Source: Clostridiales bacterium (GTDB taxonomy: Bacteria > Bacillota > Clostridia > Lachnospirales > Lachnospiraceae). From it: 32,819 nt of DNA. Below the pieces are notes generated by a model. The model saw nothing but the letters and a program-made list of their open reading frames with translations. It had not been told where the DNA came from and did no database searches. This document shows positions 13,462 through 15,047 of the stretch, piece after piece. Within the stretch, counting starts at the first letter, position 1. Each line of letters begins with the position of its first letter. The position numbers and the translations under genes were made by a program. The stretch covers positions 1 through 32,819 of the forward strand of contig JAAYPT010000063.1 in NCBI GenBank assembly GCA_012519695.1, given 5' to 3'.

Positions 13462-13968
13462 TTACTTATTTCTTCCACAACATTTCTTATATTTCTTACC
13501 GCTGCCACATGGACATGGATCATTTGGATATACCTTTGCTTCTTTTACAACGGTGCCGGACTTCTTCTGTTCAATATACAGTTTATGTCTGGTCTCTTCA
13601 TCAAAAATCTTGTCCCACTGTGGAAGCTCATATAACCAGTCTGCCTTTGCATCTACCATGTTCTTGTAAAGCTTTTCCTTATCAAAAGCAAGACTTACCT
13701 TTGTATCTTCTTCCATCTCTTCAATTGGATTTTCTTTTATCAAGCTGTCATTAATACCGTCTAAGAATCCGGTCATTTCCATAACGGTTAATCCGTACTT
13801 CTCTGCCAATTCTTTTACAGTACCTTCCACTTTCTCATCTGGATTCTCCAGCAACTTTTCATATACGCCCTTTTCCAGCATAAAATAATCCTGCCAGAAC
13901 TTCTGAAGCTGTGCACGGTCAGTCTCCTGATTGTATGCAACACTTCTCCACTGATCTAATAATGCCAT
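13462..13968 (-). CDS. SEC-C metal-binding domain protein
   Basis: The 168-residue protein ends with a SEC-C motif, [13 protein letters not shown], the zinc-binding tail also found at the end of SecA. The N-terminal part is helical and acidic and I do not recognise another domain in it. It is soluble and probably binds a partner or the ribosome or translocase, but the role is unknown. I take the ATG at 13968, 8 bases after AAGGATGG. The in-frame ATG at 13980 overlaps that site. It has a good sigma-A promoter of its own. The two flanking C-rich hairpins belong to other transcripts. Confidence 0.85.
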
Positions 13969-14024
13969 AATAAATACCATCCTTTGTTTCGATATAATTT
14001 ACATGCATTGAAATATGCTCTAAT

Positions 14025-14187: not shown

Positions 14188-14233
14188 AAAACCCCCCCCC
14201 GAAAGCAACCGCACGTTGCCTCCGAGGGGTTTT
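14188..14233 (-). terminator. strong terminator of the putative small RNA
   Basis: AAAACCCCTCGGAGGCAAC pairs on the minus strand with GTTGCTTTCGG...GGTTTT through a continuous stem using G-U pairs, closed by a 5-base loop. A run of nine G bases (C9 on the plus strand, 14192-14200) gives slack in pairing. Only four T bases follow, but the stem is very stable. Confidence 0.8.
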
Positions 14234-14321
14234 AAAAGGGGAGGATAAGTATTTAACCTTATCTTTGGTTCAAAGCATTTCGCTTTCTCCGAGGAACAAG
14301 TGGGGGCTTCGTTCCTCGGAT
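14188..14321 (-). ncRNA. putative forespore small RNA of about 134 nt
   Basis: A promoter, a 5' hairpin and a strong terminator enclose a segment with no reading frame. The 5' hairpin (14288-14320) has perfect 10-base arms and a 13-base loop GAAGCCCCCACTT, and it begins at the predicted transcription start. Downstream are small hairpins AAAGC/GCTTT and GATAAG/CTTATC, then a purine/pyrimidine-rich stretch, then the terminator. A C-rich exposed loop is typical of Gram-positive small RNAs that bind G-rich ribosome sites. The hairpin resembles the one on the DUF1540 mRNA. I do not recognise a riboswitch, T-box, 6S, tmRNA or SRP RNA signature. Endospore formers have a known forespore RNA, CsfG; whether this is related cannot be judged here. 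Confidence 0.6.
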
Positions 14322-14326
14322 AATTA

Positions 14327-14355
14327 TAGTATCACCTGCTTTTTTCTTTTTATAC
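14327..14355 (-). promoter_or_regulatory. sigma-F/sigma-G-like promoter of the putative small RNA
   Basis: The minus strand reads GTATA (14351-14355), 14 bases, then GGTGATACTA (14327-14336). The latter matches the Bacillus sigma-F -10 (GGNRANAHTR) at every position and GTATA matches its -35 (GYWTA). For sigma-G the match is GTATA, 17 bases, GATACTA, with one difference. A TATAAT (14323-14328) overlaps, but no sigma-A -35 is present. Hence forespore control is favoured, with a weak sigma-A reading possible. Confidence 0.55.
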
Positions 14356-14369
14356 AAGTTTTTTCACTT

Positions 14370-15047
14370 TTATACAAATCCGCCTGTGGTTCCTGCCACA
14401 CCCAATTGCAAAATCATTTTTACCAATTTCCACATTTCATTTAAAATCACGCTGTTCGCATAGCTTAAAGGACGTGTCAATGCTCCACTTACTAACAATA
14501 CAATTAAAATCAAGTTACTGTAACGCCGTATCTGACGGAAATATTGATTTACCTTTGGAATCAGTTCTCCCAATACATTAGAACCGTCTAACGGTGGCCA
14601 TGGAATCAGATTAAACACACCGAGACCTACGTTAATTACCGCAGAATAATAGGCAAGCAATACTCCTGTATAAACAATTTTTGAATATACATTTCCATAT
14701 TTTAACAATATTCCATATATAAGAAGCGAAAGAAATGCTAACAGGAAATTCATTGCTGGTCCTGCTAAAGACACCAAAATGGTTCCCCGCTTTTTATTCT
14801 TATAACATGCAGTATTGATGCGCACCGGCTTTGCCCAACCCATATGAAAAAACAGCAGGCACAAGGTTCCTGCCAAATCCAAATGTTTGAATGGATTTAA
14901 GGTTAATCTTCCGTCTTGTTTTGGTGTAGGATCTCCCATTTTATAGGACACATATCCATGTGCAAATTCGTGAAATGAAATGGCAATTAGATTTACCGGT
15001 GCCACATATAGCATTACCCTTAATTGATGCATATAGTAACTTAACAT
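14370..15047 (-). CDS. site-2 protease family membrane metallopeptidase
   Basis: This is a 225-residue intramembrane zinc metalloprotease of family M50, the short type without a PDZ domain. The zinc site HEFAH is near residue 27 in the first helix, and the second conserved motif NLIPWPPLDG, with the Asp ligand, is near residue 150. About five to six hydrophobic segments are present. Proteins of this type cut membrane-bound regulators, but the SpoIVFB role cannot be assigned without its partner. AAAGGA lies 9 bases before the ATG. It has its own sigma-A promoter. No terminator follows, and the small RNA promoter starts 15 bases before its stop, so read-through into the small RNA is possible. 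Confidence 0.9.
   Translation of the reverse strand: MLSYYMHQLRVMLYVAPVNLIAISFHEFAHGYVSYKMGDPTPKQDGRLTLNPFKHLDLAGTLCLLFFHMGWAKPVRINTACYKNKKRGTILVSLAGPAMNFLLAFLSLLIYGILLKYGNVYSKIVYTGVLLAYYSAVINVGLGVFNLIPWPPLDGSNVLGELIPKVNQYFRQIRRYSNLILIVLLVSGALTRPLSYANSVILNEMWKLVKMILQLGVAGTTGGFV

Follow-up and report, generated by a model that had tools for sequence, protein, structure and literature searches.

A candidate family of forespore small RNAs in Lachnospiraceae, with a conserved core behind a sigma-F/sigma-G type promoter

The stretch analysed here, hereafter the window, comprises 32,819 nucleotides (nt) of contig JAAYPT010000063.1 from a Clostridiales bacterium of the family Lachnospiraceae (assembly GCA_012519695.1), and its subject is a small RNA gene on the minus strand (14355-14188), preceded on that strand by a gene for an M50 peptidase and followed by one for a SEC-C motif protein. 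An earlier note, made from the letters alone, had proposed a forespore-specific small RNA for positions 14188..14355 without naming a strand. Every element that it described is found on the minus strand (Table 1): its sigma-F and sigma-G promoter readings are right letter by letter, and both the 5' hairpin with a C-rich loop and the very stable terminator are present. The interval itself has to be divided into a promoter and the RNA proper, and the most conserved part, a 36-nt core, had been overlooked. The claim that there is no reading frame holds, since no open reading frame of at least 40 aa lies inside the small RNA on the minus strand and the longest closed reading from ATG, GTG or TTG within it has 9 codons; a mechanical open reading frame of 59 aa on the plus strand (14265-14444) overlaps the gene. 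The predicted fold has an energy of -59.1 kcal/mol (z -5.34), which none of 200 dinucleotide shuffles equals. The gene is present in one copy in its own genome (3.16 Mb in 111 contigs).

Table 1. Features of the small RNA locus and the adjoining SEC-C gene
Feature	Position	Strand	Remarks
Promoter, sigma-F/sigma-G type	14327..14355	-	GTATA-N14-GGTGATACTA, readable also as GTATA-N17-GATACTA; kept in the genus alignment; enriched at 160 copies relative to controls
Small RNA proper	14188..14320	-	Predicted start about 14320-14325, length about 133-138 nt
Hairpin 1, TCCGAGGAACGAAGCCCCCACTTGTTCCTCGGA	14288..14320	-	CCCCCA loop closed by AAG/CTT
Hairpin 2, AAAGC/GCTTT	14272..14286	-	Predicted fold
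Conserved core, 36 nt, ACCAAAGATAAGGTTAAATACTTATCCTCCCCTTTT	14234..14269	-	Near-invariant within the genus
Core layout: purine-rich 5' part, short hairpin (14263-14244), then CTCCCCTTTT (14243-14234)		-	Last part predicted mostly unpaired
Intrinsic terminator	14188..14229	-	15 pairs, then a T run; letters differ among relatives
SEC-C motif protein, NCBIfam NF004088 (PRK05590, hypothetical)	13462..13980	-	Neighbour, not part of the small RNA

A DNA search of 60 relatives and the genome itself gave strong matches (E < 1e-20) in 27 of the 28 relatives from the same genus, the remaining one (G001) being an 85% complete genome; the best match beyond the genus was weak and confined to the core (G035, E 6e-5). 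In an alignment of 28 copies, the -35 element GNATAAA and the -10 element ATACTA or ATAATA are kept, as is the loop GCCCCCACTT, replaced by ATTT in one copy and by TCCCCC in two. The core is kept save for a few single changes, and the letters of the terminator change. Since promoter, loop and core are conserved in 27 relatives within the genus, we regard the small RNA gene as real and not as a product of chance, and the conservation of hairpin and promoter on which the earlier note had staked its proposal is indeed found.

The wider distribution was examined in 299 Lachnospiraceae genomes from 298 genera, so that almost every genome represents a different genus. A covariance model of the genus RNA (R1), which has only 10 pairs as a result of hairpin 1 being missed by RNAalifold (see below), matches 45 of the 299 genomes, and the matches examined share a purine-rich box, followed by ACTTATCCTCCCC and the terminator. 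In the 28 best loci outside the genus retrieved with the whole-RNA model, a lenient selection in its own right, TACTTATCCTCCC is exact in 26 and AATACTTATCCTCCCC in 23, and AAWGA lies within 25 nt 5' of the core in 26. A sequence-only model of the core, built in part from loci of genomes that were later searched again with it, matches 98 of the 299 genomes (97 of 298 genera); three further genomes, all SigG-positive, are matched by R1 and absent from these 98 (G065, G073, G152). Outside Lachnospiraceae, the best core match among 341 class-wide genomes is near chance (E 2.1e-4). A pattern scan of named genomes returned at least 119 stretches. Among the matches listed (80 titles) most are Lachnospiraceae, Clostridiales or similar, including Hungatella hathewayi, H. 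effluvii, Roseburia hominis An869, Lactonifactor longoviformis, Murimonas intestini and Lacrimispora defluvii; one is a metagenome-assembled genome labelled Paenibacillaceae, and others are labelled merely Bacillota or bacterium. The loci yielded 164 unique copies with TACTTATCCTCCC[CT], and the copies used for the promoter, C-run and 86-row counts below were chosen by this exact match, so that the invariance of TACTTATCCTCCC in the 86-row alignment follows from the selection. Some genomes or loci carry two core copies (L095, L120, L034, G098, G117, G184, G185, G730), which are separated by about 200 nt in Lactonifactor (L120) and G185 and by thousands of bases in Hungatella (L095, G098).

Upstream of the core, we searched with the sigma-F and sigma-G consensus patterns of B. 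subtilis. The sigma-F pattern occurs once in the whole window, at the small RNA promoter, and the sigma-G pattern 11 times, so that a sigma-G match alone proves little. Among the 160 copies with at least 150 nt of upstream sequence available, the sigma-G type pattern GNATA-N16-18-[CAG]ATNNTA, in which the letters permitted at the first -10 position were picked after the copies had been inspected, is present at 96 (24 of 26 copies from the genus and 72 of 134 others), compared with a mean of 3.3 and a maximum of 7 in dinucleotide shuffles. Its spacer is 17 nt in 80 copies and 18 nt in 16. The same pattern was found in 0-6 of about 141 windows from the same loci, matched on GC content and with coding DNA included, and in 4 on the antisense strand of the tested windows. 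Either type of pattern is present at 135 of the 160 copies (both at 37, only the sigma-G type at 59, only the sigma-F type at 39, neither at 25); in the roughly 141 GC-matched windows the mean is 2.55 and the maximum 6. In 74 of 76 sigma-F matches the spacer is 14 nt. No enrichment is seen for sigma-A-like sites, which are present at 15 of 160 copies versus 12.2 on average in shuffles. By the distance between the -10 element and the core, the copies form three groups (23-34, 50-86 and 98-153 nt); in the short forms the promoter leads almost directly into the core, and the long forms carry at least one inserted hairpin. GTATA and GGGGAGGCTA appear in print as the sigma-F elements of csfB, and forespore regulons overlap in C. 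difficile too, according to PMC7438776.

In the sample, the core is confined to genomes with a candidate SigG or intermediate score. The SigG profile TIGR02850, searched in the 299 family genomes, gave a clearly bimodal list of scores, which was split by eye on the gap, as the curated cut-off of TIGR02850 was passed by no genome. This yielded 185 positive genomes (E < 1e-100), 15 intermediate ones (6e-62 to 3e-92), whose scores may reflect a broken contig or the presence of SigF only, and 99 with background scores (above 1e-50) or none. The core was found in 93 of 185, 5 of 15 and 0 of 99 of these, respectively (Fisher p 1e-22, without correction for phylogeny). Because none of the 99 sampled genomes without spore sigma factors has it, the core is a possible sequence marker of sporulating Lachnospiraceae, though one present in only about half of the SigG-positive genomes.

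At least two C-rich segments of the RNA are predicted to be unpaired. Upstream of the core, a run of at least four C is found in 70 of 97 promoter-bearing copies, with a mean unpaired probability of 0.98. Among the long forms, many of which come from one genus and are not independent, 65 of 71 have such a run, compared with 31.3 in shuffles, and in 44 of 71 it lies inside a hairpin loop closed by at least four pairs (shuffles 2.4, maximum 5). The closing stems are of 16 different kinds, the commonest being TTGGA/TCCAA, AACAA/TTGTT and GACAA/TTGTC. C-loops of the kind pointed out in the earlier note recur across the family; hairpin 1 with CCCCCA is the form of this genus, and other genera have different C-loop hairpins or none. 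On the 3' side of the core hairpin, CTCCCC is predicted to be mostly open (position means 0.67-0.90).

The covariance search against Rfam and Lachnospiraceae that the earlier note had suggested found the RNA in family genomes and no Rfam family at its cut-off. No family reaches its gathering score in the window (0 matches) or in 20 family loci (59,583 bases), over whose small RNA one weak match was seen (BSnc120, 27.1 bits versus 114). The best match below cut-off at the locus itself, rli117 of Listeria (E 0.007, 19.6 bits versus a cut-off of 87), was rejected for falling so far short. Close to the small RNA at another locus, L038:1704-1911 (+) is likely a T-box leader (90.9 bits versus a Rfam cut-off of 93). 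Among the matches listed, no publication naming the Lachnospiraceae core RNA was found, subscription literature being mostly outside the search. Similarity to known regulators lies rather in the C-rich segments. In LhrC, UCCC sites block the Shine-Dalgarno sequence, as shown with matched mutations (PMC4132741), and the same paper states that UCCC sites are involved in target binding by RNAIII, RsaE, SprD and FsrA. The likeness to LhrC extends to placement, with UCCC-type sites occupying both a loop and a single-stranded stretch, for which the predicted counterparts here are the CCCCC loop and CUCCCCUUUU/CTCCCCTTTT; moreover, the redundant CUCCC(...)UUUU motif given for LhrC is close to CUCCCCUUUU. 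By contrast, the loop here is GCCCCCA, with no U before the C run, and whereas LhrC is described as induced via LisRK and present in five copies, the present RNA has a sigma-F/sigma-G type promoter and a single copy in its own genome. No LhrC match in Rfam reaches the gathering score in the window. RsaE/RoxS, FsrA, RNAIII and SprD share the UCCC-type motif for target pairing (PMC4132741), but differ in that their Rfam models show no sequence relation to the Lachnospiraceae RNA. The four belong to vegetative or stress regulation.

CsfG of Bacillus is a close parallel in layout and promoter class. In PMC9147052 and PMC3574147 it is described as restricted to the forespore, with a sigma-F/sigma-G promoter and conserved CU-rich segments in loops and between helices; the opposite strand of its locus is represented in Rfam by RF00516 (ylbH; PMC3574147), and is typed there as a cis-regulatory leader. 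The Lachnospiraceae RNA resembles it in its sigma-F/sigma-G type promoter, at the sequence level, and in conserved CU-rich segments predicted to be unpaired, of which the letters differ. Unlike it, the Lachnospiraceae RNA lacks TCTTCCTCCGGTTTCTCCTCTCCC and its close forms, which CsfG-type loci carry, and its neighbours are the M50 peptidase and SEC-C genes, whereas CsfG sits between ylbG and ylbH (PMC3574147). RF00516 has no match in the own genome at E <= 0.001 and, at a laxer limit, only matches elsewhere in it (best E 0.32 and 0.37), the B. subtilis control being above cut-off in both searches; conversely, the core model has no match in 12 loci retrieved by RF00516. With the covariance models failing both ways, membership in CsfG was rejected, and descent from it, raised in the earlier note as one possibility, is not supported, the resemblance being one of layout and promoter class. 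On present sequences the RNA is best described as a CsfG analogue in these two respects and possibly its replacement, kinship being unsupported. A phylum-wide search with RF00516 found 3 of 149 genomes above cut-off, and the best nine weaker matches (L064-L072) have TCTTCCTCCGGTTTCTCCTCTCCC or close forms, several with a GTATA..CATA-type promoter. Dozens of Bacillota genomes have matches of about 30-49 bits, short of the cut-off at 50 bits; the RF00516 model seems too narrow.

Taken together, we consider it reasonably probable that these genes form a new family of forespore small RNAs, each an independent gene read by sigma-F and/or sigma-G whose C-rich segments pair in trans with Shine-Dalgarno sites. 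Sequence comparison gives good support for the gene and its promoter class, and on this evidence the forespore-type gene proposed in the earlier note stands up well, with the promoter at 135 of 160 copies and no core in the 99 sampled SigG-less genomes; the restriction to genomes with spore sigma factors, which holds in our sample, is likewise supported. RNA polymerase of the forespore, with sigma-F and/or sigma-G, would transcribe the gene, and the product would expose at least two C-rich unpaired segments, the predicted CCCCCA loop of hairpin 1 and CUCCCCUUUU 3' of the core hairpin. These would most likely pair with G-rich Shine-Dalgarno regions and, much as LhrC or RsaE do with their targets, prevent a set of mRNAs in the developing spore from being translated; such repression is suggested by the fact that C-rich segments of low-GC small RNAs block Shine-Dalgarno sites, as in LhrC, or are involved in target binding, as in the others. 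The conserved core may be a general decoy or a protein-binding site, or may serve many targets by short seeds. The RNA is a good candidate regulator of sporulation, and one not so far recorded. Spores of this dominant gut family are thought to aid spread between hosts, and little is known of post-transcriptional control in the forespore. A CsfG-like promoter class and C-rich layout in a second family of unrelated sequence suggest a shared need, and offer an independent system for target search. For CsfG itself, no mRNA target had been identified according to PMC9147052, and the later PMC12456014 lists CsfG among regulators of sporulation, germination and competence mRNAs.

Several observations weigh against the reading of a target-pairing forespore RNA. 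A core match is missing from 92 of the 185 SigG-positive genomes. In 20 of these, inspected beside the SEC-C gene, the model found three divergent copies (L257, E 1.7e-4; L258, E 4.6e-4; L267, E 0.01) and a fourth was judged by eye (L249), and none of 20 SigG-negative loci beside that gene has a model match (40 flanking stretches in all, with L252, L268 and L271 cut by contig ends). As for targets, the complement of the core with up to 3 mismatches has 6 non-self sites in the own genome and 6 in the reversed control, and a long antisense target was accordingly rejected; two of the six lie, by eye, shortly before an ATG, at a galU-like start (AAAAGGAGAAGATAATTATG) and an oxidoreductase-like start (L245), and behind the best of the six (2 mismatches) no start codon lies nearby. 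GGGGAGG-N4-10-ATG occurs 13 times versus 7 in the control, with 8 of the 13 putative starts opening a frame of more than 100 codons, and no spore theme was seen by eye among these sites. Leaders of small acid-soluble spore protein (SASP) genes in five genomes of the genus show only generic GGAGG, an ordinary ribosome-binding site (RBS). The leader of one SASP gene (L289-L293) has ACNAAAGA-like runs just before the RBS that resemble the 5' part of the core, possibly only the A-rich composition of an RBS.

On the structural side, hairpin 1 was not predicted by a free RNAalifold run on the genus alignment, probably owing to MAFFT gaps in the stem, and the hairpin pairs were for this reason named by hand. 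In the structure so named, 88.9% of cells pair, compared with 39-51% when partners are slid, and its covariation score is above 493 of 500 shuffles. Among 27 distinct rows, one pair of hairpin 1 is A-U in 14, G-C in 9 and G-U in 3, and one of hairpin 2 is C-G in 17 and U-A in 4. The compensatory changes looked for in the earlier note are found in part: there are some paired changes in the stem of hairpin 1 under a conserved loop, but pairs with change on both sides do not exceed the shuffles (3 versus a mean of 3.6, with 428 of 500 shuffles reaching 3). One slid version has 6 such pairs, further pair types number 12 versus 13.6 in shuffles, and in hairpin 1 one pair is broken in 16 of the 27 rows and another in 19. 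Being invariant in the genus, the core hairpin gives no covariation, and across the family only 46 of 86 rows have T as the third base of its 5' arm, the pair being often lost.

Other functions can be envisaged for the same gene. One possibility is that the CU-rich core, by mimicking the 16S rRNA anti-Shine-Dalgarno tail, works as a general decoy, titrating strong Shine-Dalgarno sequences and broadly lowering forespore translation at dormancy without specific targets. We hold this to be unlikely. Its appeal lies in the similarity of TATCCTCCCCTTTT in the core to the 16S 3' tail and in a core shared by 97 of 298 genera while no long specific target appears; yet more than CCTCC is kept, as the conservation of AATACTTATCCTCCCC and AAWGA in the best non-genus loci shows, which generic pairing does not explain, and a decoy would need high abundance. 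A related idea, equally doubtful, is that the RNA fills the place that CsfG has in other endospore formers and that imitation of the 16S anti-Shine-Dalgarno tail together with the C-loops silences forespore translation broadly, a convergent job performed by an unrelated sequence. Less likely still, the core could be a protein-binding site through which the RNA sequesters or guides an RNA-binding protein, such as an RNA chaperone or the SEC-C neighbour. The strong conservation of a partly unpaired sequence fits this, as does the nearness of the SEC-C gene. Of 179 unique matches, 148 are decidable and 31 are not, and 82 of the 148 have SEC-C no more than 1 kb from the core, oriented in one of two ways; the count leans to linkage, as copies with short flanks were kept if the gene was visible and set aside if not. 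However, the SEC-C gene is present in 283 of 299 Lachnospiraceae genomes, and thus also in most of those without SigG and the RNA, and is not nearby in 66 of the 148 copies, three of which (L227, L229, L239) are chance-level class-wide matches. A functional link between the RNA and SEC-C is weakened by these counts, and the adjacency is probably old synteny with rearrangement.

The gene order in the window, with M50, RNA and SEC-C on one strand, could also suggest a cis element, either acting as leader or attenuator for SEC-C downstream or forming the 3' end of the mRNA for the M50 peptidase. This is very improbable, as the RNA has a promoter-like site and a terminator of its own, of the 82 linked copies 59 have SEC-C divergent and upstream and 23 have it downstream in the same direction, and M50 adjoins the RNA in only two other genomes among the compared loci, some with short flanks (L002/L077, L003). 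Since the neighbouring gene is not constant, the small RNA is best seen as a free-standing gene. The least probable alternative is a small-protein gene or a dual-function RNA: short start codons do occur inside the RNA, but besides the 9-codon limit on closed readings noted above, the genus alignment shows no conserved start codon, and the distance from AAWGA to AATACTT varies by single bases.

Beyond the SEC-C gene, a further sigma-G type site, GCATA-N17-CATACTA, was seen at 13441-13413 (-), about 90 nt before a DUF1540 gene (13323-13003, minus strand), and at L259 a GTATA..CATACTA site precedes, by eye, a DUF1540-type gene; DUF1540 may be a forespore gene here.
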